IMG/VR virus record: IMGVR_UViG_3300009705_000056
Span: 1-34,636 of that record
Source: a virus
Reading direction: 5' to 3' (one strand)
DNA: 34,636 bases
In this document: positions 14,507 to 31,369 of the stretch, piece after piece
Position numbering within the stretch: the first letter of the stretch is position 1
Layout: the number at the start of each line of letters is the position of its first letter
The notes under the pieces: model-generated
Told to the model about the DNA's origin: nothing
What the model saw: the letters and a program-made list of their open reading frames with translations, nothing else
The model's database searches: none
Made by a program: the position numbers and the translations under genes

Positions 14507-15346
14507 ATGTCTAAAATTAACGAACATAACATATCTCGTGCAGCCATACTATCAAATGTAATATATCGTGCTAAAGAGACTGAACAATGGTCAAATGAGA
14601 ATCAATGGCACAATAACGCTTTTTGGGCGAAAGGGATTTCATTAAAGAGAAACTTGATAGGTGATGATGGAACAATAAAGGTAGGGTATACCGTAGAAGA
14701 CCAAACATTGTACCTTACTTATTCCGGCACGCAAGATATTGAATTTTGGTTGTACAATGCCGATACAGATGTTCGCCATTTACATGGTATAGGTCTTCAT
14801 GAGGGATTTTTGAGACTTGCCGAAGAAGTTGAAACAGTTCTTGTCAAAGATAGTTACATCTTTGACATAATAAACAATAACAATATTACAAAAGTTGTTC
14901 ATTGTGGCCATAGTGCTGGTGGAGCAGTAGCTGGCATAATGGCTCTTAAGTTTTTTGAGGCCGACGCTTATTACGGGCCGGGTCTTGCTTGTGACCACGT
15001 CATTATCGATTTTGGATCACCAAGATATCTAAAAGATGACCAGCCTATAGACATCTTTCCTTGCGAAAGACTCAGGTTTCAAGAAATTTATGATATTGTT
15101 CCGTGTACACCTCTCACTTGGAGAGGGCCGTTACCCGGCTTTGAACATTTCGGCTCAGTCAGATATACAGCACCGGACTTTAAACTATTAACCAAGCTCC
15201 CTTGGTATCGCCCTTTAATGTTTATTAAAAAATATTTTGGGTCTCTATGGTTGGGTAAATCGGTTAGTGAAGCGACAAGCCACCATTCTATTGATGGTTA
15301 TGCTTCTACAGTTGTTGTTAATCATTCCCTAAAGGATATATTATGA
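14507..15346 (+). CDS. class 3 (fungal-type) lipase
   Basis: A 279-residue alpha/beta hydrolase of the lipase class 3 family. TLYLTYSGTQDIEFWLYNAD is the oxyanion strand and loop; CGHSAGGAVAGIMALKF holds the nucleophile elbow G-H-S-A-G with Ser136; IIDFGSPRY follows as in the family; IYDIVPCTP supplies Asp196; and SHHSIDGY supplies His259 or His260. The catalytic triad is therefore complete. No signal peptide or membrane segment is visible, so it is cytoplasmic or carried on the virion. It overlaps the next (protease) gene by four bases (ATGA), so the two are translationally coupled. Likely substrates are acylglycerols or phospholipids; a role in lysis, entry or membrane remodelling is inference. 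Confidence 0.88.
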   Translation: MSKINEHNISRAAILSNVIYRAKETEQWSNENQWHNNAFWAKGISLKRNLIGDDGTIKVGYTVEDQTLYLTYSGTQDIEFWLYNADTDVRHLHGIGLHEGFLRLAEEVETVLVKDSYIFDIINNNNITKVVHCGHSAGGAVAGIMALKFFEADAYYGPGLACDHVIIDFGSPRYLKDDQPIDIFPCERLRFQEIYDIVPCTPLTWRGPLPGFEHFGSVRYTAPDFKLLTKLPWYRPLMFIKKYFGSLWLGKSVSEATSHHSIDGYASTVVVNHSLKDIL

Positions 15347-16926
15347 AATATATTTTATTGTTGTTATTAACGCTCGTTCCTATGCACACAGAAGTATATG
15401 CAGAAACGCAGAATTCACCACCAGCATATATGATTCATTCTACTGGACCTGGCCTTCTTGCAAGTGGGTTCCAGGGCACCGCAGTCAGTCTACGTGTATA
15501 TAAGAATTATGGTTGGTTTATCACAGCTAGCCACGTTATCAAAGGACGATCTACAGTAGTTATACAAGGACATAGCTATCCCGTTCGAGTTATGGATAAC
15601 TTTCGTACTACTGGATTAATTCCTGACGGATTGACGATTTTACGCACCGTAAACAAGATACCGCATGAGCATCTCAATACTTATCTTATGGATGTAGATA
15701 GACAGCCCAAGGTGGGGGATAAGGTATGGCTATTAGGATATCCCGGTGGTAAACTACAATCTAAACAAACATATGTCACACAATTAATTAAAAATCAATT
15801 TCTGACTAGGACTTACCTAAGTTTTGGTGCTTCTGGTGGACTTGTCGTGTATGATAATGGGAGTCTAGCGGGTATCATCCATGGGTTTGTAGAGGGTAAA
15901 GGTCGAGAGGGTGTTCATAGTAATATCGCACTCTTTGCAAGTAGCATCAACGAGAACTATCCATTTCTTGTTCCACGTTCTCAGAACGATGAAAAAAGAA
16001 TAGAGTTACACGATAAAGATGTCAAGAATGACGATGCTAAGGATGACGATCATCATCATGATAAATGTGATTGTGGGTGTGTAGGATGTGAGGATTGTAA
16101 AAACGGCGAATGTCCGTGTGATTCAGACTGTAAGTGTGACACAGATTGTGCTTGCAGAATAAAGAATAGAAGTGAGCCTGAGTCTCGTATACAGGGTGGA
16201 CCACCACTGCCACCAGACCAAGAGGAGCCTGTTACAGAAGACCCTGTCGATTCTACACCATTACCTCCATTCAAAGAACCTGATGTAGAAGAACCCGTAG
16301 TCGAGGAGCCTGTTACAGAAGAACCTCTTAAGCTAGAAGACAAGGGAGTGCAGGAAGAAGATAATAAATACATAGACGAAAGGATGAAGAAATTTAAAGA
16401 AGAAATCATTAGTGTTATTAAGGATATGCACTCAATAGACAATGCGGTTGTTCCACCGGTTGTTCCACCGGTTGTTCCAGAGGTAACTCCAGAATCGAAA
16501 CCGGACCCACAACCGGTTATTCCTCCGGAAAAAGAAAATGTGGGCATTTTAGGAAATTTAATCAGTAAGTCTGGTTGGATATTACCAATTTTAGGTGTTG
16601 CTGTTCCGGGCGGTGCTTTGGGGTGGCTTGGTGTTCAAGGTGTCTTGTCTTTAGTTAGACGGAGAAAACGTCGTAAGGAGGCGGGGGATGATACTATTCC
16701 ACCTTTGTTTCACAGAGACGTTACGGAAGCCGAACAAATCATTGGTCTTCGCCAATCAGAACAACGCGAACCAATATTTGACACAATGCGAGGAATCCTT
16801 TTCGAGGATGAATTTAACTCCAACCCTGACCAATCGTTCAAGGAAGCTTTTGCAACCGTCAATTCTAAATTTAACCAAATTACACCGGTCGCAACACGGC
16901 ACACGAGAGTAGACACCAATAAGTAA
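15343..16926 (+). CDS. secreted, membrane-anchored trypsin-like protease with Cys-cluster
   Basis: 527 residues in ordered blocks. 1-20 is a signal peptide (MKYILLLLLTLVPMHTEVYA). About 30-205 is a trypsin-like protease: TASHV gives His64, DGLTIL Asp95, and GASGG Ser164. About 230-272 has HHH followed by 11 cysteines in 30 residues (KCDCGCVGCEDCKNGECPCD), metallothionein-like. About 278-395 is a Pro/Glu/Val-rich spacer with EEPV and VVPP repeats. About 401-438 is a hydrophobic membrane helix ending in RRRKRRK, and the last ~90 residues are polar. Predicted topology puts the protease outside the membrane and the tail in the cytoplasm. Four-base overlap with the lipase gene. I know no described phage protein with this architecture. 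Confidence 0.88.
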   Translation: MKYILLLLLTLVPMHTEVYAETQNSPPAYMIHSTGPGLLASGFQGTAVSLRVYKNYGWFITASHVIKGRSTVVIQGHSYPVRVMDNFRTTGLIPDGLTILRTVNKIPHEHLNTYLMDVDRQPKVGDKVWLLGYPGGKLQSKQTYVTQLIKNQFLTRTYLSFGASGGLVVYDNGSLAGIIHGFVEGKGREGVHSNIALFASSINENYPFLVPRSQNDEKRIELHDKDVKNDDAKDDDHHHDKCDCGCVGCEDCKNGECPCDSDCKCDTDCACRIKNRSEPESRIQGGPPLPPDQEEPVTEDPVDSTPLPPFKEPDVEEPVVEEPVTEEPLKLEDKGVQEEDNKYIDERMKKFKEEIISVIKDMHSIDNAVVPPVVPPVVPEVTPESKPDPQPVIPPEKENVGILGNLISKSGWILPILGVAVPGGALGWLGVQGVLSLVRRRKRRKEAGDDTIPPLFHRDVTEAEQIIGLRQSEQREPIFDTMRGILFEDEFNSNPDQSFKEAFATVNSKFNQITPVATRHTRVDTNK

Positions 16927-16953: not shown

Positions 16954-17634
16954 ATGACAGAGCAAGTAGCAGTAGGCAATTTTACTGGAATGATTACCAG
17001 ATTTAAGAATCAGAGCATCCTTCTTGGCATGAGGCCATGTGTTGATCTATTGCATGAAATCGTTGGTAATGATGAATTTAACAATCGGGTAGGTACTGAT
17101 GATTCGACACAGGCACATATGAACCAATTGGTTGGTATGTGTGATCGAACACGGCGTGTAATCACTTACAACCCTGAAGACGTTGATATTATGTCTGTTC
17201 TGGATGCTGACATAGAACTTAGCGAAAGCTTGCGTCCTATCAATTTGGATAATATTCAAATGTCCAGTACTCCACTGATCGAGATTCCGTGGATGTTCGA
17301 TGGTACAGATGCTAATATTCCTATTTGGAGCAGTTTGCAGTTCCGTAACGGTATCGGTGGAATGCTTTATTCAGCAGCTTCTCAGATCTTGGTCCAGTAT
17401 ACAAGGTTGGAATCCAGAAATCGTAGTTATCTGATTACGGTTAATGATTCTTTACGTATGTATAGCCTGATGCAGACATTCCGTGATCTGTGTGATCGAT
17501 TCTTGGGTCATGATAACCAAATGGACATCGCCCAGCCTCTGGCAACAGATGAACCAAGCAATAACCCAGCACCTAATAGGGTTGGTAACGGGTCAGTGGC
17601 CTTTGGTAGCTCATTACAGAATCAAGATTCGTAG
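16954..17634 (+). CDS. hypothetical protein between protease and tail genes
   Basis: 226 residues with CAGGAGAA upstream of the ATG. Largely helical with even charge. A central hydrophobic patch (RNGIGGMLYSAASQILVQYT) is followed by a helix-rich segment (RMYSLMQTFRDLCDRFLGHD) and a disordered Pro/Asn/Gly/Ser tail. No membrane helix, signal or recognised domain. It is closed by the terminator at 17661, so it is the last gene of the lipase-protease unit. A structural or virion-assembly protein is possible; unknown. Confidence 0.75.
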   Translation: MTEQVAVGNFTGMITRFKNQSILLGMRPCVDLLHEIVGNDEFNNRVGTDDSTQAHMNQLVGMCDRTRRVITYNPEDVDIMSVLDADIELSESLRPINLDNIQMSSTPLIEIPWMFDGTDANIPIWSSLQFRNGIGGMLYSAASQILVQYTRLESRNRSYLITVNDSLRMYSLMQTFRDLCDRFLGHDNQMDIAQPLATDEPSNNPAPNRVGNGSVAFGSSLQNQDS

Positions 17635-18243: not shown

Positions 18244-21200
18244 ATGATTCTCACCAAAGAGGGATATATTACCTCTATAGGGTTGCTGTTGCCAGACAAC
18301 TCTACTCAACAAATATCGCCAGCAGATTTAAGAACTAGTCTTGTTAATTTATCTGATTCAGTTCATATATTTCTTGACAATCAAGATATTCTAGCTAAAA
18401 ATATTGATAGTATTGATACTAGAACTACTCTTGTTGGCGATGGTGCTATCGCAAAAAGAGATCTTGTTGGAAGGTCAAATCAAGATAATTCTGCATTTGG
18501 CTATAATGCTCTACATGGAAATTACAATGGCGTAAAAAACACAGCTATTGGTGCCACCGCTTTAAGTTGTAACGTTACTGGTCGTCAGAATGTTGCGGTA
18601 GGGTATAATGCTATTGCTGGTAACACTGTTGGTTCTGGCAACGTTGGCATTGGTAATTTTGCGTTACAGACCAACAAAAAGGGTGATTTTAATATTGCTA
18701 TTGGTCATGGTGCTGGGGCTTATATTGGTGAGAACTCTAATTATAATTTTTATGTTGGTGCTCACCCTGTTGACTACGAGGGCTTGTGCGATACGTCAGA
18801 AATAACTACCAATGTTCCGTTATTGTTTGGTGATCTTCTTAACAAAAAGCTGGGTGTAGGTGTTAGTAGCTTACACAGTTTTGGTGCCATACAATCTTCT
18901 GGTGATGTGTCTCCATCTCAAAATGCCATTTTTAATCTTGGGCATGGTTCGTACAATTGGGGTACTGCGTTCTTAGCAAGCGGTCTGTCATACCCTAGTT
19001 CTGGCGATTTTTTGGTCACAAGGCACACGCCGCAAGGTGTAGATTATCCAGATCAATATAATTATTCCACCGTCTTTTCTATGGATCGCGATGGTTATAT
19101 TGGAATTAATACAGCAGCTCCATCTGGAAGCCACGGGATTCTCACAGTTGATGGTAATATCGTACCAAATGAGACCCATGCATATAGTTTAGGTAGACCT
19201 GAGTTGAAATGGCATGGTTGGTTCAACGATGTTGTTGGTGATAATCTAGATATACTAGAAAACGCAAGTGTTACTGGGCTGCTTAATGTCAGTGGAGATG
19301 CTACTTTTGGTAATGATGTACTTGTTAAAAGTGACCTTACCGTAGATCAAGACACGTCTATTGGACGCAATGTAGATGTCAGCGGTAATGCGGATATTGG
19401 TGGCGATGTATATACGAGCGGTCATTTGAATGTAGCGGAAACTGTAGGTATTAGTGGTACTATGGTAACCAGTGGCGAGGTTACTTTTGGTAGTGGCCTT
19501 ACTGTAATGTCAAATATAATTACTAGTGGAAATTTAGACGTAGAAGAAAACATAACTGGTGATGGTAACATAGCTGTATCAGGAACAGCTACATTTGGCA
19601 ATGTGCTTCCGCATCAGACAGATATCTATTCTATCGGTAGTTCTGAATTAAAATGGGATGGTTGGTTTAATGATCTTGTTGTTACTGGGCTGCTTTCTGT
19701 TCATGATACGAACTTTACTTGGAATACTATCACAGAATGTATTTATGATTGCAAGACATTACATCTGGCTACCAGTGGGTTCTGTGATCCTGAAACTGAT
19801 GGTTTAACAGGTGGTAATCTTTGTGGGTACTTAAGTGATGCATCTCTAGACGGTGCTGGATTTGAAGTACACTCCAGTGGTATTGGATACGTCAGAGATT
19901 ATCGCTATATCTTTAAAGAGCCAAATCAAGACCTCACTTGTCTTGAAGTAGATAGTAGTTATGCTAGGTCAAGATGGCAATCTAATATTTCCATCGAAGT
20001 AGAAGATGGGCTGCATATGCAGACACAGCGGGTTCTTAGTGATAAGAAATTGTCTTTAGTTACTCAGAGCGGTTGTCATGGGTTGTTCTTTAGGACATTA
20101 CAAAGTAACTCTAATAACATAACGTATTTTGGGTCTGAGGACCATGTCGAAGCGTATTCTTATAATCAGCCCGTTAACTTTATTGGACCGTCTGGCAATG
20201 GTGATTATCACTTATCCATAGCCACAGTTGATTCTGGAGTAACTGTTGGTATTGATCTTGCCACGAGAATATCTGGCACTATGCATGGGTTTGGTCTTGA
20301 AAATCATGACGATCTCAATGCAGATACTGACAGGTTTGCCTTAAGAGTACACAACAATACTACTACAGTGCTTGAGCCCTTTAGCGTTCTAAGGGCTAGT
20401 GGTTTAGTTGGTATTACTAATATTGCCGTTGCTTCTGGTGCTGAACCTATTGTGCCAGCTACCTTGTTTAATGTGCAAGGTGACAATAGTTGCAACGTGA
20501 GATTTTCCGCTAGTGGTCTTGAAACTTCTAGTCTCGATATTATTAGCAATGGCAACACTCGTGCTTCTGGGGTACAAATTGCATATAATGCAGGAAACCA
20601 ACTTGTTGATTTTTCATTAATCAAACCAAGTGGGGATATTGGTGCATTATCTAGCTTTTTGTCTGTTACCAACGATGGATATGTTGGCATTGGAGAATTG
20701 AGAAGAGGTGGCTATAGAGATGTAACTCCATTTGAGCCATTGGTTATTAGTCATTCAGGCGTTACTAACAGTGGAACGGTTGCTATTAGAGAGCAGTCTT
20801 TAGCTCCTTCTGCTACGCCAGCTTATGGCAAACTATATATTAAGCCAAAAATTGCTGATAATCAAACTCAATCAATATTTTTCCTTGATGATGATGGTAA
20901 CGAATTTGATATAATAACTGGTGATCATACTCACGATTATGCAGACCCATCACATACCCATTCTCATGAGCATGAGCATGACCATGATTATGATTATGAC
21001 ACATTGTATGTTGATGTCAGGGGTAACACTTATGCTGGTTCAGGGTCTCCAGATTCTAGGCCGACGCTCTCTGCTCATAGAAATACTACATTGGGTCATT
21101 ATGCACTCAATTCTTTATCTACCGGCTCTGACAATATAGCTATCGGCAGTGGCAGTCTGCAAAGTCTCACAACAAGTGCTCATAACACAGTAGTCGGTGT

Positions 21201-23187
21201 AGGCTCTTTGTTTACAGCTATTACTCCAAACAGTAACACTATTGTGGGTGCTTTAAACCTTGGTTCGGGAGAACAAGCTGAAGGCAATGTGATTGTAGGT
21301 TACGGAAATCTTCAACAATCGACCTCTTCTACACCAACGGGCTGTATTATTATTGGTACAGGAATAGAAGATGGTCTGAATGACCACATGGACAACTACG
21401 CTCTTGCTATTGGCCACGGGGATACGCCAATCGTATTGGGTTCCATGGGCGGTAGTAATGGTAGAAATGTTTCTATTAATTATGCTGATTTTTCTGTTAC
21501 TGATGGTGACCTTACTGTTGCTCCAGTGGCTGACACAGAAATGACCTTTAATAGCAATGGCTTGACTGTTGCTGAAGGTCACGTAATTATTGCCAGTGGT
21601 GATATTCGTTCGTCTAATCCGGGTTATCCTACAAAGTTATTAGTTCAAGATGGCAGCTTGTCTCTTGGTGGTCAAAATGATAGACATATCTTGTCATTTA
21701 GCCATGCGGTTGAAACAGAAAGAGATATAGCCATAATAGATCTGAAAGATAACGATCACACTTCTGTGAACGGTCTTCTTTCTCTTAGATTTACAGATAC
21801 CGATAGTTCACATGAATTAATGCAGTTTGATCACACTTCTGTGGCAATGCCATTGGCTGCAAATGAAAAGACTACAAGTGTTAATTATGTTGGCCCTACA
21901 GGTACTAATAGTGCAGCAATAAGTCGTCCGTTTGTTAAACTTCACGGTGACATGTTGGTTAGGGGTTCTGTTCAGTTTGCTGACGGTACATACATAGATT
22001 CGGCTAATGTTCAATCTAACTTTGCTGGAACAGGCTTGAGATTGGCGAGCTTTAGCAATGGCAAGAGGATGCATCTAGACTTCACGACCCTTGCAGATGC
22101 AGAGACTTTAACGCCTGAGATAGATAACGATGAATCATATATTGCCCTAAGTGTTCCGTCTGGAACAAGTGATAAAATTGGTTCGATGTCGCTAACAGAT
22201 CTTAGCAGGATTATACATCCTTATGCTGGACGCGGCTACGCTTTAGTGTCTGATAACTGTAACCATATATGGTCAAATTCTGGAAATCTTGTAGACACTG
22301 TTAAGAATACTGGTTGTGTAGTGATTGGTTGTGAAGCTGCTGCTTCTGCTACTGGCTGGAAAAATGCTGTAATGATTGGTGCTGAAGCGGGTAGGGATGC
22401 CACCACTAATAACCCGGATATTTTGGGTCCGGCTACTATAGATACTCCAGTAATATTTATTGGTAGTCGTGCAGGTAGGGATTCGGATAATATATCTAAT
22501 TCAATATTTATTGGTACTGATGCTGGGTATTTAGCTAGGAGTGCTGAAGGAACTATATTTATCGGGGAAAGTGCTGGTACTGACAGCAATATGGATGATT
22601 CCATTGGTATTGGTGAACATGCGTTAAGAGGTATGTTGAGCCGTGATGACAATGGCACGCAAAACATAGAGATTGTTGCTGGTCTTGAAGATAATGAAAG
22701 GTTGATGTTTGGTTCAGGCAACCTTTCTAATAGGCTTAATATTCAAAATAGCATTGCGGGAAAAACTGACGCAAAAAGAATTTCCATTGGTGATGCAGTG
22801 CTTAATCCAGACGCTCCGTTGTCTGTTAGGCTTGACCACACTATACCGGGTCACAATGGCATTGATGATATGCAAACTTGGTATTGTAATGACACTAAGG
22901 TTGCTCAAATAACTTGCCCTGGTGATATTGAAATTCACTATAGTGGTGGGCTTATGTTGCCGATGACTGTTGAAGGGTTCGCACAGCAGGAAATAGCATG
23001 TCCAACGTCATACGCATCACCAACAAGTGGCACGTTAAGAACTAAGGATTACGACTTCATTACTAACATTGATGTCTCTCTCGTTAATAGAGATGCTAGA
23101 CTGACTGTGCAAAGTGGTGCGTATGTAATAGCACAAAGAGTAAATCGGGAATATAGGCCAATTTGGGTGAATTGTTCAGGAGTATGA
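18244..23187 (+). CDS. giant tail fibre/adhesin with YadA-like head repeats
   Basis: 1647 residues. N-terminus (1-45, LLPDNSTQQISPADLR) is an anchor also found in the 32513 protein. About 81-160, about 947-1020 and about 1356-1465 are three blocks of YadA/Hia head-type repeats (NTAIGATAL, NVAVGYNAI, NIAIGHGAG and similar), which form left-handed beta-rolls in trimeric adhesins. Between them are DLTVDGDL-like strand repeats (about 350-460), two GELKWDGWFND-type duplicated segments (about 315 and 460), and a His-rich stretch at about 894-920 (DHTHDYADPSHTHSHEHEHD), like the metal-binding HxH sites of T4 fibres and gp12. GAGAGAGGG precedes the ATG. It is most likely a trimeric host-binding fibre. 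Attachment partner unknown. Confidence 0.85.
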   Translation: MILTKEGYITSIGLLLPDNSTQQISPADLRTSLVNLSDSVHIFLDNQDILAKNIDSIDTRTTLVGDGAIAKRDLVGRSNQDNSAFGYNALHGNYNGVKNTAIGATALSCNVTGRQNVAVGYNAIAGNTVGSGNVGIGNFALQTNKKGDFNIAIGHGAGAYIGENSNYNFYVGAHPVDYEGLCDTSEITTNVPLLFGDLLNKKLGVGVSSLHSFGAIQSSGDVSPSQNAIFNLGHGSYNWGTAFLASGLSYPSSGDFLVTRHTPQGVDYPDQYNYSTVFSMDRDGYIGINTAAPSGSHGILTVDGNIVPNETHAYSLGRPELKWHGWFNDVVGDNLDILENASVTGLLNVSGDATFGNDVLVKSDLTVDQDTSIGRNVDVSGNADIGGDVYTSGHLNVAETVGISGTMVTSGEVTFGSGLTVMSNIITSGNLDVEENITGDGNIAVSGTATFGNVLPHQTDIYSIGSSELKWDGWFNDLVVTGLLSVHDTNFTWNTITECIYDCKTLHLATSGFCDPETDGLTGGNLCGYLSDASLDGAGFEVHSSGIGYVRDYRYIFKEPNQDLTCLEVDSSYARSRWQSNISIEVEDGLHMQTQRVLSDKKLSLVTQSGCHGLFFRTLQSNSNNITYFGSEDHVEAYSYNQPVNFIGPSGNGDYHLSIATVDSGVTVGIDLATRISGTMHGFGLENHDDLNADTDRFALRVHNNTTTVLEPFSVLRASGLVGITNIAVASGAEPIVPATLFNVQGDNSCNVRFSASGLETSSLDIISNGNTRASGVQIAYNAGNQLVDFSLIKPSGDIGALSSFLSVTNDGYVGIGELRRGGYRDVTPFEPLVISHSGVTNSGTVAIREQSLAPSATPAYGKLYIKPKIADNQTQSIFFLDDDGNEFDIITGDHTHDYADPSHTHSHEHEHDHDYDYDTLYVDVRGNTYAGSGSPDSRPTLSAHRNTTLGHYALNSLSTGSDNIAIGSGSLQSLTTSAHNTVVGVGSLFTAITPNSNTIVGALNLGSGEQAEGNVIVGYGNLQQSTSSTPTGCIIIGTGIEDGLNDHMDNYALAIGHGDTPIVLGSMGGSNGRNVSINYADFSVTDGDLTVAPVADTEMTFNSNGLTVAEGHVIIASGDIRSSNPGYPTKLLVQDGSLSLGGQNDRHILSFSHAVETERDIAIIDLKDNDHTSVNGLLSLRFTDTDSSHELMQFDHTSVAMPLAANEKTTSVNYVGPTGTNSAAISRPFVKLHGDMLVRGSVQFADGTYIDSANVQSNFAGTGLRLASFSNGKRMHLDFTTLADAETLTPEIDNDESYIALSVPSGTSDKIGSMSLTDLSRIIHPYAGRGYALVSDNCNHIWSNSGNLVDTVKNTGCVVIGCEAAASATGWKNAVMIGAEAGRDATTNNPDILGPATIDTPVIFIGSRAGRDSDNISNSIFIGTDAGYLARSAEGTIFIGESAGTDSNMDDSIGIGEHALRGMLSRDDNGTQNIEIVAGLEDNERLMFGSGNLSNRLNIQNSIAGKTDAKRISIGDAVLNPDAPLSVRLDHTIPGHNGIDDMQTWYCNDTKVAQITCPGDIEIHYSGGLMLPMTVEGFAQQEIACPTSYASPTSGTLRTKDYDFITNIDVSLVNRDARLTVQSGAYVIAQRVNREYRPIWVNCSGV

Positions 23188-23188
23188 T

Positions 23189-26100
23189 ATGCCAGTGTAT
23201 TTAGACGCTATACTTTTTCCCAGTGGTGACGGGGCTGGAACGTTTGAGGCTATAGGTGGACCTACAGCAAAGTGGCAAACCGTTAATAGTGGAATTGAAG
23301 CACCATTTGACTCAACATACCTACGAGCTTCTGGAGTTGAAGTAAAACAAGCTGGTGGCAAAACTCAGTTTCTTAACTTGGAAGAGCTTCCTCCTTATTT
23401 TAACACGATGGATACTATTTCTGGAATTGTAAGACTGCAAGTTGCTCATGATGATGACTATGAGCTTACTTTGCAGTTTTTTGAAGGAGATAGCACTACG
23501 CCGCTTACTAGTGCTAGTGGTAAGTTTGGGTACTGTAATACTAGCACATGTAGCGAATTTCCTGGAACACCTGTCTCGCAGGGTGGTACATTTGCAAATT
23601 ATGTATTTAATTTTGATTTAAAAAATAGGAATCACGGTTTTTGTGCTTGGGAAGATGCGTTACTTAAAATAACAGTTGAGTCTGATGAAGATTCTAGTCC
23701 TGTTGACATATCAGAAATACAAGTTAATGCAATTTATACTTCTGGTGCTGGTAGGTGTGCAGATGGTAGACCTATACGTCATTGTGACTGCGATCCTCCT
23801 GTTGCCACAGACGGTACGTGTTGCTGGTGTGATAAAACAACAAATCCTGCAAGTTTTTCGTACTACTGTGTAGAGAATATAACCCCAGCGGATTGTTTTT
23901 CACAATACCCAAATTCTTCATGGGCAAAAGTTGCCGGTGGTTGTTCTTCGCGTGACTGTTCTAGCATTTGTGGAGAAAACAAGTGGACTTGTGTAGACCC
24001 AGAAATTACAACAATTGACAGGTGCATTGAAGCATCAAATGGTCAGTATTTAAGTCAACAAGAGTGCTTGGATGCTTGCAAGACCACGGGATGGAATTGC
24101 GTTGGAAATGCGTGTGTAGAAGTAGATAAATCAGTAAGTACTTATGCAACCCAAGCCGAATGTGAATCCGCATGTTGGTTATGGGAGTGTAGCGGTGTGC
24201 CTGATCCTAATGATATTCCAGGGGGACGCGAATGCCAATGTGTTCAGAGTCCGAATGGAACTTACGACACTCAAGACGTTTGTAGATCCGGAGAATGGTG
24301 GTGGGGGTGTTCTTGGGATGAGGTGGCAGAAGATAGCATATGTATCCAAACTTCATCAGGAATATATTTAAATGCACCTATTTGTTCAGGTGCTATTGCT
24401 GCGGAGGGATGCCCTCCAACAGATTGTTGTCAATGGGATGGTGTAGCTTCTATTGTATTATCAGGAGTCACTTGTGATGATAATAATGTTTATCAAACAT
24501 TTACTGTGCCAGAAGGTCCACCTGGCTCTTGGAATTGGGAATCTCAGCTAGCGTGTGGAGATAATTTTAGCATTGGAATATCATGTGATTCTGCAGCAGC
24601 GGTTGGTCCCGACAAATGGCAAATAGACTCTTTTTCAGCTACATGTATGGATATAGAACTTGAAGGCGAATTGACACCACCCACTTGTGACGTTGCTCCC
24701 AGTTGGCTGTTTAAAATTAATTCATCGGATGGTTGTGCGGAATGTTGCCCTAGCGGTGATTGGATTTGTCAAGATAATGAATGCGTTGATGTTGGGCCGG
24801 ATTATACAGGGGGCGAAACGGTATATATAAGTGAACAAGAGTGTCAGGAAAACTGTTCAGTACCTTCGGGGGCATGTTGTTACCAAACGGGGTCAGATGG
24901 ATGGGAATGCATGAACTACAAAACCGAGGAAGAGTGTACAGCTTTTGCGACAGTGACAAATTGGTACGAGGACGAAGTCTGTGTTGATTGTACTTGGTTG
25001 TATGAATGCGTGACTCCGTGTGGCGATCCTGATGGTTGTAGCGAACCGTCATGCGTTCGCACTGCGGATGGAACTTATGCAACTAAAGCATTGTGTGAAG
25101 CAGAGTGTGTGGCCCCAACGGGTGCATGTTGTGTAGACAATGTTTGTACTCCGAATCAAACTGAGGCACAGTGTGAGGCTCTTGGAGTAGGGGCAACATC
25201 AGTAGCGTGGTATGAGAATGAGGATTGTGTTGATTGTACTTGGCTTTATGAATGTGTTGACGGATCGTGTGTTCGCACTGAGAACGGAACGCACGCAACT
25301 AAAGAATTATGCCAAGCATCGTGTTTAGGTTCATGTTGTTACCAAGATGAAGATCTTAATTGGTTTTGTCAGGAGAATAAAACTGAGACAGAGTGCAGTG
25401 CTCTTGCTGAATCCCCCGGAATATCAAATTGGTATTATGATGAAGTTTGCGTTGATTGCACTTGGCTTTATGAATGTACTGATGCGGGTTGTGTTCGTAC
25501 TGCGGATGGGACGTACAATACTAAGGCAGAGTGTGAAGCAGCGTGCATAGGTGCGTGTTGTGCAGATGGTGTTTGCACTCCGAATCAAACTGAAGCACAG
25601 TGTGAGGCTCTTGGTAGTGTGACAAATTGGTATCAGGGTGAAGACTGTGTTGATTGTAGCTGGCTTTATGAATGCACTGACGCAGGATGTGTTCGTACTG
25701 AGGATGGGACGTATAGCACTAAAGCAGAATGTGTAGCAGCGTGCATAGGTGCGTGTTGTGCAGATGGTGTTTGCACTCCGAATCAAACTGAGCCTGAATG
25801 TAGTGAGCGTGATGGAGCAACAACTTGGTATCAAGGTGAAGATTGTGTTGATTGTAATTGGCTGTATGAATGTACTGATGTATCAGGCTGTGTTCGTACT
25901 GCCGATGGAACGTATGCAACTAAAGCATTGTGCAGAGCAGAGTGTACGGGTGCATGTTGTTACCGTTCTGTGAAGGAAATTTTGCGTCCTAATGGGCATA
26001 CAGGCAATCCTTGGGATAGTTTTAATTACACTTTGATCAATGATGATGTTGAATATCCTTCTGCGGCAGGAGACAGTGATATAGCGGTGTGTGACAACTC

Positions 26101-28561
26101 TGACGACGGAGATCGTGGCACTTGGGATATGACTGCAGTTACTACTCTGACATCAATAACTAACTGTAGAATTCATCTTCGACATAAAGGGGGTGGTTAT
26201 TCTAACCCAGTTGATGTTGATCTTTATATTGGTGGATCTTGGCAAACTGCCGTATCCCTAAGTGTTACTAGTTCCTTTGCTTGGGTATATGCTGATTTTT
26301 CTGGTAGCTGGTCGTCTTCTGATTTTGATGATGCTTTATTGGGTGTAACAACAGGCTCTATAGGTGGCGGTGGTGAGTATCATTTAGCAGTTGCGTATTT
26401 CGAACTAAGCGAAGGAGATCCGGCAGATCCGGGAGAAGAATGGACCTGTGTTGAGAATCAAACTGAGGAACAGTGCAGCAGTTTTTCTGGTGAAACAAAA
26501 TGGTATCGGGACGAAAATTGTGATCCTGATTGTGATTGGTTATATGAATGTGTCGATCAGTCAGCAACCGACCCAAGTAATCCGACTGTGTGTATTCGTA
26601 CTGCAGATGGCACGCATGCAACTAAAGCATTGTGCGAAGCAGTGTGCGATGATCCACTACCTTCGGGTGCATGTTGTGTAAACGATGGTGGTGCTTGGAC
26701 CTGTTATCCTGATAGAACTTCGCAACAGTGCAGCGACCTTGGTGCTGCAGCGTCATATTCGAATTGGTATCAGGACGAAACTTGTGAGCCTGATTGTAGT
26801 TGGCTGTATGAATGTGTTGATGGGTCATGTGTTCGTACTGCGGATGGTACTTTTGATACTAAAGATTTATGTGTAGCTGATTGTGTAGCCGTGGGTGCGT
26901 GTTGCGTAGATAGTGTTTGTACTCCGAATCAAACTCAGGAAGAGTGTAGCGGTCTTGCGGTTTCAGCAGTATCAGCAACGTGGTATGTGAATGAAACTTG
27001 TGATCCTGACTGTGACTGGTTATACGAATGCACCGAAGTGTCAGGCTGCGTTCGTACTCCTGATGGAACGTATGAGACTAAAGACTTATGCGACTCTTAT
27101 TGTATAATGGGTCGGTGTTGTTGGCTAACTGAAGACGACGACGAAAACACCGTGGAAAATTGTGATACTACACATGAGTCGGGATGTGCAGTGTTGAGGG
27201 AAAACGAGGTAATCGATCCGTTAGTAGCTGTTTCAGGTTGGGTTTCGGGTGTAAATTGTACTGATGATCCTTGTGAATGGTATGATGCATGTTGTAATTG
27301 GGATGGTAAAGTTACAATATCATTTGCTGGACCTTCAGGGTTATATCTTGATCCAAATTCTGACATACTGAGATTTGGATGGTCTGATGGTGATAGTTAT
27401 ACGGATGTAGATGATGGCGTGCGAATGCCGCAATCGCATCTCAATGAAGGTCAGGTTACTTCCTACAACAGTGGTGAATATATCCAGTTTGGCACTGAGG
27501 ATGTTCCGGAAATACCAGCTACTTCTTTTGCAGTTAGTGTTCTTATACACACTGACGATACAGAAGGATCTGGAGTAGACCTCATGTGGGCAGGTGCATG
27601 GCAAGGTTTTAAACTACATAGTGAACGAGAAAGAGGCCCCGTCTTCGATAGGAGAGAATGGGATCAATATAGGTGGGATATTGTTACGGACTTGTCTGCT
27701 GGCGTATCCGGTATTGGAATGGAAATTTTAAATGGATGGAACGAGAACGAGTCTAACTGCACCCAATATTGTGGCGAAGATGAGACTGAAGTTGATGCTG
27801 CCTATATTGAAGTGGAGTATGTTTGTAATGAAGATGCCCCGGAATGCCCATATTGTTCTCACACTGAAGAGATACAAATGACAGGCTGTAGAGAAGATTT
27901 TTATCCTAATGCTATTATTCCACACTGCTGGGAGTATTTTGGCGAGGTTGATTGTGGCGATACTGTAGCTTTGAAAGTATATTGTGACCCAGACTTGCCC
28001 GTGTCAGATTCAGGTAAATGGACTCTAACACAATTTGACCGTTCTTGTGCTGATCCAGTGACCCCATCAGCAACTGGGGTGCTTTCAAATCCTGAAGAGT
28101 GTGATAAGTCTCCTTCATTTTACGGCAAATGGGCTGAGACTAAAGATTGTGAGTGTTGTAGGGAACACTGTTGTGATTGGGATGGTAGTGCTGCCGTTAC
28201 ATTCTTAAACGGTGAGACGCCATGTTTTGATGTGTCGTACACATTGACCAAAAGATCTGATTACATATGGGAGTTTGGCAGTTCTGGTATTGGTGATGCA
28301 AGCCCCGTATCTGGCGATTTAGGCGGCAATGATTACTACCTTAGACTCAGTTGTGATCCAGACAAAAGTCTCTCGGACTCTGATGAAATAAAAGAAAAAT
28401 GGACCATTCTTGATATAGATTTACCATGTGCGGAAAACTTTAGGGTGGTCGGGGGAAGCTCCCCTTGGTTATCACCACCTAGTTGTGATAACCCACCTAA
28501 TTTTCATCTTGCCTTTGATAGCATGGCCGGATGTACTGGCTCTACTTGTCCAGATTCTTAG
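23189..28561 (+). CDS. giant cysteine-repeat virion surface protein
   Basis: 1790 residues; the stop of the fibre gene is one base before the ATG, and CAGGAG precedes it. About 1-190: a beta-sandwich domain (GGPTAKWQTVNSG) shared with the 30398 protein. About 195-420: irregular Cys-rich modules (W-x-C, CIEASNGQYLSQQECLDACK). About 420-555: a CCQWDG beta domain that recurs near about 1370 and 1660. About 561-1308: eight tandem ~65-residue modules with 10 Cys each (GACC...C...C, WY..E.C..DC.WLYEC, CVRT.DGTY.TK..C...C). The sixth module is interrupted by a ~158-residue beta domain (about 927-1084). GACC motifs are common in Planctomycetota proteins. No catalytic motif or membrane segment. Probably a disulfide-stabilised fibre or capsid-surface protein. 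Confidence 0.85.
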   Translation: MPVYLDAILFPSGDGAGTFEAIGGPTAKWQTVNSGIEAPFDSTYLRASGVEVKQAGGKTQFLNLEELPPYFNTMDTISGIVRLQVAHDDDYELTLQFFEGDSTTPLTSASGKFGYCNTSTCSEFPGTPVSQGGTFANYVFNFDLKNRNHGFCAWEDALLKITVESDEDSSPVDISEIQVNAIYTSGAGRCADGRPIRHCDCDPPVATDGTCCWCDKTTNPASFSYYCVENITPADCFSQYPNSSWAKVAGGCSSRDCSSICGENKWTCVDPEITTIDRCIEASNGQYLSQQECLDACKTTGWNCVGNACVEVDKSVSTYATQAECESACWLWECSGVPDPNDIPGGRECQCVQSPNGTYDTQDVCRSGEWWWGCSWDEVAEDSICIQTSSGIYLNAPICSGAIAAEGCPPTDCCQWDGVASIVLSGVTCDDNNVYQTFTVPEGPPGSWNWESQLACGDNFSIGISCDSAAAVGPDKWQIDSFSATCMDIELEGELTPPTCDVAPSWLFKINSSDGCAECCPSGDWICQDNECVDVGPDYTGGETVYISEQECQENCSVPSGACCYQTGSDGWECMNYKTEEECTAFATVTNWYEDEVCVDCTWLYECVTPCGDPDGCSEPSCVRTADGTYATKALCEAECVAPTGACCVDNVCTPNQTEAQCEALGVGATSVAWYENEDCVDCTWLYECVDGSCVRTENGTHATKELCQASCLGSCCYQDEDLNWFCQENKTETECSALAESPGISNWYYDEVCVDCTWLYECTDAGCVRTADGTYNTKAECEAACIGACCADGVCTPNQTEAQCEALGSVTNWYQGEDCVDCSWLYECTDAGCVRTEDGTYSTKAECVAACIGACCADGVCTPNQTEPECSERDGATTWYQGEDCVDCNWLYECTDVSGCVRTADGTYATKALCRAECTGACCYRSVKEILRPNGHTGNPWDSFNYTLINDDVEYPSAAGDSDIAVCDNSDDGDRGTWDMTAVTTLTSITNCRIHLRHKGGGYSNPVDVDLYIGGSWQTAVSLSVTSSFAWVYADFSGSWSSSDFDDALLGVTTGSIGGGGEYHLAVAYFELSEGDPADPGEEWTCVENQTEEQCSSFSGETKWYRDENCDPDCDWLYECVDQSATDPSNPTVCIRTADGTHATKALCEAVCDDPLPSGACCVNDGGAWTCYPDRTSQQCSDLGAAASYSNWYQDETCEPDCSWLYECVDGSCVRTADGTFDTKDLCVADCVAVGACCVDSVCTPNQTQEECSGLAVSAVSATWYVNETCDPDCDWLYECTEVSGCVRTPDGTYETKDLCDSYCIMGRCCWLTEDDDENTVENCDTTHESGCAVLRENEVIDPLVAVSGWVSGVNCTDDPCEWYDACCNWDGKVTISFAGPSGLYLDPNSDILRFGWSDGDSYTDVDDGVRMPQSHLNEGQVTSYNSGEYIQFGTEDVPEIPATSFAVSVLIHTDDTEGSGVDLMWAGAWQGFKLHSERERGPVFDRREWDQYRWDIVTDLSAGVSGIGMEILNGWNENESNCTQYCGEDETEVDAAYIEVEYVCNEDAPECPYCSHTEEIQMTGCREDFYPNAIIPHCWEYFGEVDCGDTVALKVYCDPDLPVSDSGKWTLTQFDRSCADPVTPSATGVLSNPEECDKSPSFYGKWAETKDCECCREHCCDWDGSAAVTFLNGETPCFDVSYTLTKRSDYIWEFGSSGIGDASPVSGDLGGNDYYLRLSCDPDKSLSDSDEIKEKWTILDIDLPCAENFRVVGGSSPWLSPPSCDNPPNFHLAFDSMAGCTGSTCPDS
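24869..27112 (+). repeat. eight tandem ~200-bp coding repeats
   Basis: Eight units, mostly 195-240 bases, encode the 10-Cys modules; the sixth carries a ~470-base insertion. Units four and five share an exact 57-base stretch (25537-25593 and 25735-25791, offset 198 bases = 66 codons), indicating recent duplication. Other units are diverged at many positions. The tract could vary in copy number by recombination. It has no unique spacers and is not a CRISPR array. Confidence 0.85.
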
Positions 28562-28626: not shown

Positions 28627-29679
28627 ATGTCCTTGGTGATATCAGATAGAGTAAAAGAAACGTCTATTACAACGGGCACGGGGACGGTATCTCTTGGTGG
28701 GACTTTCGGAGCATTCCAGTCTTTTGGATCGTCTGTGGGTGATGGTAACCAGACCTATTACGGCATAGAAAACGAGTCAAGATGGGAGGTTGGTGTAGGT
28801 ACTTATACTGCCTCTGAGAATACTTTATCGAGAGATACCGTTCTTGATAGTTCGCTTGGGCCGGGATCAGGTGTGAATTTAAATGGTGTGTCCATTGTTT
28901 TTTGTACTTATCCAGCTAGTAAGGCGGTTTATTTAAATACCGCTAATGATGTAGAGCTTAGTGGTAATCTTAATTTAACGTCATATGACAACCAATTAAC
29001 AACGTTCAAGTTATCGGATGCTGGTAATGTATTTCATACTTATGTAGATAGCGTGTATAATAGAACAATTAGTTTACATAATAATGGGACGGTTTCTCCA
29101 ACTTGGAAGCTAGGTCTTAAGACTTCTCCAAATGATGTATTAGAACCCCCGCAGTACGGTTATGTATACGGTCAAGATGGAGACGTTGGATTAGTAGGAA
29201 ATTCCACAAGTTTATTTAATTTATCAAATTCTTACGGGTTTACTGTTAAACATCAAGGATCTGATCTTATAAGAGCACATGCTATTACGGGTGTTAGTGT
29301 AGATGCTGATCTAGACCTGAAACAAGGCTTAACCCCAGCTAAATTAAATGTGTATAATAAATTTATAACCGCTTCAAGTTATGAGAGATTAAGTATTTAC
29401 GGTCAGCTATCTAGTAATTTTATAATTGCTGCAGAAGCTGATGGTGTAGGTGCGGTAAGGGATATTGAATTTCCTACTGCGGTACAGTTTACTGGTGATG
29501 TATCGATTAATAAAACAACGGAAAACGCTGGACTGATTGACTTTCGTGCAACAGCGGATGCGGATGCAACATCCGCGATTTCTACATTAACTAACAGTTC
29601 TGCCACTACGCATCATATTCAAGTTGAAATAAATGGTGCTAAGGCTTGGATTGCTTGTTCAACAACCGATCCAACATAG
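28627..29679 (+). CDS. phage fibre protein (SDRVKETS-type N-terminus)
   Basis: 350 residues. The first ~100 (SDRVKETSITTGTGTVSLGG, then GAFQSFGSSVGDGNQTYYGI, EVGVGTYTASENTLSRDTVL) form a domain widespread in tailed-phage virion proteins. The same domain begins the last gene of the window (33487). The rest is beta-rich and repetitive with short strands and TTDP at the end, typical of a fibre shaft and tip. A short site AGGT precedes the ATG. It ends just before a small membrane protein gene. Confidence 0.8.
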   Translation: MSLVISDRVKETSITTGTGTVSLGGTFGAFQSFGSSVGDGNQTYYGIENESRWEVGVGTYTASENTLSRDTVLDSSLGPGSGVNLNGVSIVFCTYPASKAVYLNTANDVELSGNLNLTSYDNQLTTFKLSDAGNVFHTYVDSVYNRTISLHNNGTVSPTWKLGLKTSPNDVLEPPQYGYVYGQDGDVGLVGNSTSLFNLSNSYGFTVKHQGSDLIRAHAITGVSVDADLDLKQGLTPAKLNVYNKFITASSYERLSIYGQLSSNFIIAAEADGVGAVRDIEFPTAVQFTGDVSINKTTENAGLIDFRATADADATSAISTLTNSSATTHHIQVEINGAKAWIACSTTDPT

Positions 29680-30397: not shown

Positions 30398-31369
30398 ATG
30401 GCTACGACGACAGTAAAACCAAATGGCGATGGTACGTTTGTCGATGGTAATTACAGCAGCTGGTCCATCGTTGGTGGCCCGACCGATAAATATGCCGCTG
30501 TAAATAATGGGACCGCCACCCCGGATGACACGGATTATGTCGTTAGCTCGATGCAAGAGGGCCAAGGTAATGACTACGGCTATTTTCTTTTTGAGGACAT
30601 GCCTGCGGATTTTGACACTGGCACGTCGGCGACAGTCAAGATACGTCAACGGTGTTACACTGGTGATGATAGCGTAAAGTATCGGTTGTTTGAGTCCAAT
30701 GAATCGACAGCGTTGACAAATGAAATAACACTGGAGTGTGACAATAGTGAAATTTCTCATTCGTACTCCCATCCGTTCCGGACCGATACTGTAAGTTTCT
30801 CGATCACCGGAGCCACAACGAAAACTGCTTGGGACGGAGTGGTACTAAAGATTTTCCATGTTGGAACAGGTGATGGCGACGATCCGCTGTACCACGTTTC
30901 TGAGATAGACTTGGTAATAGGTTATACTGTCTCAACGGCACCGGAAATTGCTGTTACCGGATTGGATGATGAAGCAATTGCAGACGGAGATAGCTCTCCG
31001 CGTACAGCAGATGGCACAGATTTTGGAACGATTACCGCAGGCGGTAGTATGGTTACCAGAACTTTCAAAGTTACTAATACTGGTGATGCTAATTTAACTA
31101 CAAGTACTCCAACCATACCCACAGGGTTCACTCTTACAGAAGGTCTTGACGCTACTATAGCTGCTGGAGCAAATGATACGTTTTCTGTGCGTCTGGATAA
31201 TTCTGTTGTGGGCACAAAAAGTGGTGACATTAGCATTGCTAATAATGATGCCGATGAAAACCCGTTCAATTTCGCTATTACAGGTGAAGTTAGTGCTGCG
31301 GCTGCGGCTGCATCCCCCATAGTACCTGTAACCAATGCTTTACTACGTCCCTCGTTTGCTGGGCTATAA
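30398..31369 (+). CDS. surface protein with choice-of-anchor D domain
   Basis: 323 residues, AGGAGAG before the ATG. About 1-185: the beta-sandwich domain shared with the giant Cys-repeat protein (GGPTDKYAAVNNGTATPDDT, FLFEDMPADFDTGT, AWDGVVLKI). About 190-300: a choice-of-anchor D (ASH/Hydin-like) domain with hallmark PEIAVTG, DGTDFGTI, FKVTNTGDANL, IANNDADENPFNFAITGEV. A short Ala-rich end (AAAAAS) follows. Choice-of-anchor D domains are frequent in surface proteins of Planctomycetota and other environmental bacteria and rare in phages. The DNA of the first two thirds is visibly GC-richer than its surroundings. Likely a virion surface or adhesion protein. Confidence 0.85.
   Translation: MATTTVKPNGDGTFVDGNYSSWSIVGGPTDKYAAVNNGTATPDDTDYVVSSMQEGQGNDYGYFLFEDMPADFDTGTSATVKIRQRCYTGDDSVKYRLFESNESTALTNEITLECDNSEISHSYSHPFRTDTVSFSITGATTKTAWDGVVLKIFHVGTGDGDDPLYHVSEIDLVIGYTVSTAPEIAVTGLDDEAIADGDSSPRTADGTDFGTITAGGSMVTRTFKVTNTGDANLTTSTPTIPTGFTLTEGLDATIAAGANDTFSVRLDNSVVGTKSGDISIANNDADENPFNFAITGEVSAAAAAASPIVPVTNALLRPSFAGL

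Follow-up and report, generated by a model that had tools for sequence, protein, structure and literature searches.

A 158-cysteine modular protein in a swappable gene slot of a phage family without a cultured member, a probable virion surface adhesin

Disulfide-rich folds are normally linked to export compartments. The question raised by the locus described here is what a giant cysteine-rich protein does when it is encoded among the structural genes of a phage and has no sign of being exported. The window that we analyzed is a 34,636-nucleotide stretch of viral DNA (IMG/VR record IMGVR_UViG_3300009705_000056), and the gene lies at 23189..28561 on its plus strand. It runs from an ATG to a stop codon with no internal stop in the window translation, its ATG is placed one base past the stop codon that ends the fibre gene upstream, and an AGGAG motif sits directly 5′ of this ATG. 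The product (P0001) is an acidic protein of 1790 amino acids and 194 kDa (pI ∼4.05) with no signal-like start and no hydrophobic or membrane segment. It contains exactly 158 Cys residues (8.83%), close to the earlier estimate of about 150, whereas the remaining 24 ORFs of the window have together 91 Cys in 8494 residues (1.07%). At this background, ∼19 Cys would be expected in a protein of 1790 residues, and the excess corresponds to a binomial log10 P of ∼−88. Synonymous changes exceed non-synonymous ones both among the eight repeated modules of the protein (pooled pS 0.54, pN 0.25) and between the whole gene and its ortholog in the closest relative, G001 (dN/dS ∼0.5). Positive selection among the modules, considered at four-fold sites, was dropped; all sites give dN/dS values of 0.2 to 0.6.

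The protein starts with a beta-rich domain containing 3 Cys (aa 1-188; 23189..23752), delimited by profile search. This domain is paralogous to the N terminus of a 323-aa protein encoded at 30398..31369 on the same strand (E value of 2e-7; profile i-E of 2e-69 after iteration), which combines it with a DUF1573/ASH-like Ig domain. An irregular region with 27 Cys (aa 189-410; 23753..24418) follows, including stand-alone 4-Cys W-x-C units, and then a CC-x-WDG domain that has 10 Cys and is predicted to be beta (aa 411-522; 24419..24754) and a linker unit with 4 Cys (aa 523-560; 24755..24868). These features, and all those described below for this gene, are on the plus strand.

The central part of the protein is a module array spanning aa 561-1307, with modules starting at aa 561, 645, 714, 788, 854, 921, 1160, and 1236. 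Each ∼65-aa module joins a GACC unit with 6 Cys to a WLYEC unit with 4 Cys, and the WLYEC unit is also found solitary in the irregular region at aa ∼266-400. The motifs WY..E.C, WLYEC, and R(T/E)x(D/N)GTx.TK..C are present in every one of the eight. A C-x5-C insertion brings module 1 (24869..25120; 84 aa) to 12 Cys, while 10 Cys are found in module 2 (25121..25327), module 3 (25328..25549; GSCC in place of GACC), modules 4 and 5 (25550..25747 and 25748..25948, modelled jointly), module 7 (26666..26893), and module 8 (26894..27109). Module 6 (25949..26665) has the same 10 Cys plus 2 in an insert, being split after its GACC motif by ∼158 Cys-poor residues (aa 927-1084; 25967..26440) for which the profile search found no relative. 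With this split module set aside, lengths range from 66 to 84 aa. The original prediction of eight tandem modules, each with 10 Cys in a fixed pattern, is thus right in the number of modules, while the array is broken by the module 6 insert and module 1 departs from the Cys count.

Two further CC-x-WDG domains close the protein, bringing the motifs to the predicted three (aa 413, 1368, and 1661). The second (27290..28153) is interrupted by a ∼146-aa Cys-poor insert (aa 1380-1525; 27326..27763) that has its own ortholog in G001, and both halves of the split domain match the WDG profile. The third, found by profile search, occupies the C terminus (aa 1656-1790; 28154..28558).

The setting of the gene is that of a structural and fibre cluster. 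The window encodes a terminase, a portal-sized protein, a head decoration-like protein, and a major capsid protein, and behind the capsid gene come a lipase-like protein, a trypsin-like protein, a 1647-aa spike or virion-type protein, the Cys-rich protein, and then several fibre-like proteins. The 1647-aa upstream neighbor (18244..23187, plus strand) matches phage virion structural and tail spike families, whereas the Cys-rich protein itself matches no known fibre or spike family. This location and the position of the gene fit the earlier suggestion of a phage fibre or coat protein. Related stretches number at least 598 in IMG/VR; in the best 80, the major capsid protein is 79 to 94% identical, and the contigs reach 174 kb. 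Isolate phage records match the family only weakly, which indicates that this family is large and has no cultured member.

The slot that the gene occupies is bordered by the giant fibre-like gene on one side and by other fibre genes on the other. In the relatives, homologs of the 1647-aa protein flank it, and homologs of the 350-aa downstream neighbor (28627..29679, plus strand) lie just behind it in many of them. We surveyed 40 relatives whose contigs continue for 5.5 kb or more behind the capsid gene; in most relatives, the slot lies only ∼5 kb from that gene. A Cys-rich giant of up to 1828 aa is present behind the fibre-like gene in 15 of the 40, and an unrelated large protein in the other 25. 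Ten slot proteins without Cys richness were examined, and their Pfam matches include FG-GAP repeats, a matrixin protease domain, and a phage-type glycine-rich domain, all of them surface-type domains.

The closest relative, G001, is a 57-kb record with a capsid protein 94% identical to that of the window, and the two are collinear from the decoration gene through the window end, save for one extra glycosyltransferase-like gene behind the Cys-rich gene. Its ortholog of the Cys-rich protein is an 867-codon frame with an N-terminal domain 61% identical to ours; it carries irregular Cys units, a poly-Thr stretch, and WDG domains including the same inserted domain, and the eight-module array is missing. 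Among the 16 genes shared with G001, the Cys-rich gene shows the highest dN, 0.47, compared to 0.03 for the capsid gene, 0.03 for the gene at 16954, and 0.24 for the fibre gene. The syntenic ortholog indicates that the gene is ancestral to this phage lineage. Slot swapping together with fast change is the behavior of a host-interaction protein, and the free swapping of the slot between related phages suggests that the gene probably encodes a fast-changing protein of the virion surface.

Some features of the slot proteins are absent from the window. In L060 (15255-20738, plus strand), the slot protein has 1828 aa and 121 Cys, with a different ∼40-aa repeat (e.g., CDDIEIKICLDENGNEIPATPTVDSNGCVTGYTC) and poly-Thr stretches; this repeat is a second family of Cys modules occupying the same slot. 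Long poly-Thr stretches resembling mucin-like linkers recur between the modules of slot proteins (L042, L052, L064, L070, and others). The extra gene directly behind the Cys-rich gene of G001 (L166 6566-7636, minus strand), which the window does not have, encodes a glycosyltransferase family 2-like protein that might be a candidate for glycosylating the Thr-rich protein. Six relatives (L006, L014, L015, L017, L029, and L031) have an intein-like Hint domain of ∼142 to 145 aa within their Cys-rich slot protein (e.g., aa 66-207 of the L017 ORF), with the pattern CF..dS ... DDHPI ... VNxxxFHNC. It starts with Cys and ends with HNC, and it looks able to splice or cleave; its Pfam matches (Hom_end_hint, PT-HINT, and Hint_2) are weak, and the window protein has no such domain.

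The GACC unit can be written as the regular expression G-A/S-C-C-x(n)-C-x(7-9)-C-x(n)-C-x(n)-C. The window modules match this pattern, and its six Cys are invariant in 20 phage units. We scanned one genome per bacterial and archaeal species with a DNA form of the pattern, which is biased toward GC-rich genomes because it fixes a GGC codon. Among the matches listed, 69 of 80 sit in an ORF of 150 aa or more, and by record titles 57 of these 69 listed ORFs belong to Planctomycetota, mostly Phycisphaerae, and 6 to Zixibacteria. An HMM built from the phage units alone matches 44 of the 69 listed cellular ORFs at an i-E below 1e-3, the best real match scoring 33.5 bits; no reversed or shuffled decoy was hit, the highest decoy score being 2.0 bits. 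The converse search is weaker, the window modules being recognized at an i-E of 0.001 to 0.004. That a phage-built HMM recognizes the cellular ORFs points to a GACC unit common to phages and Planctomycetota, as originally predicted, although Cys-rich sequences converge easily and the apparent homology should be read with that caution.

The cellular proteins (consensus GACCLPDGTCEDDLTEAECDAAGGTYQGDGTTCATVSC) resemble the phage protein in having six Cys in the same order and at similar spacing, in tandem copies within Cys-rich ORFs. They differ from it in mostly having a signal-like start and in the absence of the WLYEC unit, which was found neither in the cellular ORFs examined nor outside the phage lineage; a search of viral contigs for a WLYEC-like Cys pattern gave, among 80 of its 85 stretches, a single one in an ORF of 120 aa or more, a chance match. 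A scan of viral and bacterial contigs with a full module (A1) returned no relatives, and neither the whole protein nor a module matched anything in Pfam, PHROGs, NCBIfam, PDB, or isolate phages (50,697 phage records). No described family was found for the GACC unit, nor any description of GACC proteins in phages in the open literature apart from preprints.

Giant GACC proteins are nevertheless recurrent in environmental viral contigs. The pattern written with a GGT codon gave 27 viral stretches, with proteins such as those of L309 (1741 aa) and L313 (1924 aa, the longest, with 22 GACC/GSCC motifs), and the surrounding DNA examined at these stretches held no homolog of any window protein. Some of these genes adjoin baseplate wedge, tail, head-closure, and sheath genes. 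Like the window protein, these giants have the GACC unit and no signal sequence, and several lie in structural or tail clusters; unlike it, they have other N termini, some of them collagen-like, and no WLYEC array was detected in them.

We next consider whether the Cys would be paired with one another or would hold metal. The number of Cys is even in every module (10 or 12). An AlphaFold2 model of two adjacent modules (4 and 5) reached a mean pLDDT of 83 and shows repeated small beta-beta-alpha units, for which a Foldseek search against PDB gave nothing above chance. Among 483 full-length GACC units, cellular and viral taken together, all six that lack Cys1 also lack Cys6 (Fisher p of 4e-4), a count of six units in which the absence of Cys6 is partly alignment slack since that column is loose; this fits a bonded C1-C6 pair, and it is the sole Cys co-loss observed. 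By a crude heuristic, a signal-like N terminus is present in 39 of 56 cellular GACC ORFs, whereas all 14 proteins of this phage family and all 17 other viral ones lack it. We searched 20 relatives and found neither a phage DsbA nor Erv/Alr, the control search for the latter being equally silent, and thioredoxin, a reductant, is encoded by 4 of the 20. With no phage DsbA and some thioredoxin, oxidation would be passive or host-driven.

The even Cys numbers, the C1-C6 co-loss, and the presence of signals in cellular but not in viral GACC proteins make disulfides appear likelier than metal sites, and suggest that those of the phage would close late. It could be argued instead that the clusters bind Zn or Fe in the cytoplasm, giving a metal-loaded fibre (iron piracy) or a storage protein. 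CxxC and CC pairs do occur, the cytoplasm is reducing, and putative iron-binding domains have been reported for phage fibres (PMC11705849). Yet the same unit occurs in cellular ORFs with mostly signal-like starts, that is, in proteins bound for an oxidizing compartment, the loss of Cys1 is always paired with that of Cys6, and no known metal-site family was matched, so we regard metal binding as unlikely.

As for where the protein acts, a product that is secreted or released by lysis late in infection, serving as matrix, decoy, or modifier of the host surface, would be in keeping with the apparently secreted nature of the cellular proteins that bear the module. The Cys-rich protein and 30 other viral ones lack a signal sequence or hydrophobic segment, and the slot is within a structural and fibre operon, which makes a role outside the virion quite unlikely. 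A fibre or decoration of the head, coating the capsid and aiding adhesion to mucus-like or polymeric surfaces, we judge to be about equally improbable: the closeness of the slot to the capsid gene and the Ig-like companion protein at 30398 speak for it, but the GACC giants of other viral contigs adjoin baseplate wedge and tail genes, and the neighbors in the window match tail spike and fibre families. Least probable of all is the capture of an entire surface protein gene from a planctomycete host, now used as coat or fibre. The GACC unit is indeed found in Phycisphaerae as well, but relatives of the N- and C-terminal domains have so far been found only in the phage family, as illustrated by the N-terminal paralog at 30398-31369, the gene is syntenic in G001, and cellular ORFs examined lack WLYEC. 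In addition, a search for the capsid protein in 294 genomes from the phylum of a Phycisphaerales MAG, aimed at finding a host and run without a positive control, gave nothing. The prediction of a captured host protein therefore lacks support where the entire gene is concerned; only at the level of modules is exchange with planctomycetes, in either direction, plausible.

We thus favor the reading that the gene probably encodes a swappable adhesin or fibre of the virion surface, at the tail or baseplate, with disulfide modules as its scaffold. We infer that it would be carried in the virion as an interchangeable surface part, its variable slot lying between conserved structural genes, and that the phage-specific N-terminal domain would anchor it to the particle. 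The 6-Cys GACC, 4-Cys WLYEC, and ∼10-Cys CC-x-WDG modules would form a stiff, protease-resistant scaffold, and the Cys-poor beta domains set in loops of these modules may do the binding. The model of aa 1-530 was poor (mean pLDDT of 58.7), so that the evidence for a binding role of the N-terminal domain consists of weak fold matches; scattered beta-sandwich matches of this model (CBM28, TNF-like, and gingipain adhesin domains) were set aside as too weak. The absence of a signal sequence and of a membrane segment suggests synthesis in the cytoplasm in a reduced state. The protein would then be packaged with the particle, and its disulfides would close on meeting an oxidizing environment, at or after lysis.

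The view that extensive disulfide use is rare in phage virions has to be qualified, given the recurrent viral GACC giants and the disulfide network of Agrobacterium phage Milano, which strengthens the virion and whose stabilizing effect is lost with DTT (PMC10491603, PMC10811340). The likeness lies in Cys strengthening a virion, demonstrated for Milano and presumed for the window protein. Milano crosslinks capsid, collar, and sheath, with 2.4% Cys in its structural proteins (PMC10491603, PMC10811340), whereas in the window Cys makes up 0% of the capsid protein, 0.15% of the portal-sized protein, and 0.6% of the decoration protein and is concentrated in one modular protein at 8.8%. The YTV cell-wall proteins of planctomycetes (PMC8567305 and references therein) are likewise large, Cys-rich surface proteins, with a different motif.

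Hypervariable modular phage adhesins are a kind already known; the novelty lies in an architecture of disulfide modules that recurs across phage lineages and for which there is neither a described family nor an isolate. More tentatively, and with somewhat more doubt than confidence, we propose that giant virion proteins of this sort may form an as yet undescribed class, widespread among environmental phages, built on a planctomycete-type 6-Cys unit, never exported, oxidized after release, and in some relatives subject to self-splicing or cleavage by the intein-like Hint domain. If true, each cytoplasm-made fibre would bring hundreds of Cys into the virions of several phage lineages, and these phages would have to pair them after lysis or else control their oxidation; a pool of modules would also be common to exported planctomycete proteins and phage adhesins. 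The hypervariable slot could also help to track host interaction in this abundant family of uncultured phages.

Other parts of the window deserve mention. The class-3 lipase-like protein (Lipase_3; 14507-15346) is encoded between the capsid and protease genes, and G001 has a copy; in the remaining surveyed relatives, no such gene lies behind the capsid gene. The trypsin-like protein (15343-16926) begins with a signal-like sequence and has a hydrophobic C-terminal stretch; a tight cluster of Cys, KCDCGCVGCEDCKNGECPCDSDCKCDTDCAC, separates its protease domain from a proline-rich region. The first 2350 nucleotides of the window are rich in repeats and of higher GC content (∼0.5), with five TTGAGACTGAGTCTCAA-type palindromes; these repeats have no match in Rfam. 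Copies of a ∼39-nt element occur at 517, 802, and 1306, and their hairpin stems vary by compensating changes (GGGGCTGG/CCAGCCCC, GGGACAGG/CCTGTCCC, and GGAGCCGG/CCGGCTCC). Two of the copies are located just 5′ of the likely starts of minus-strand ORFs, one of 115 aa and the other HNH-like and of 222 aa, and the repeats of this region are found in relatives too.
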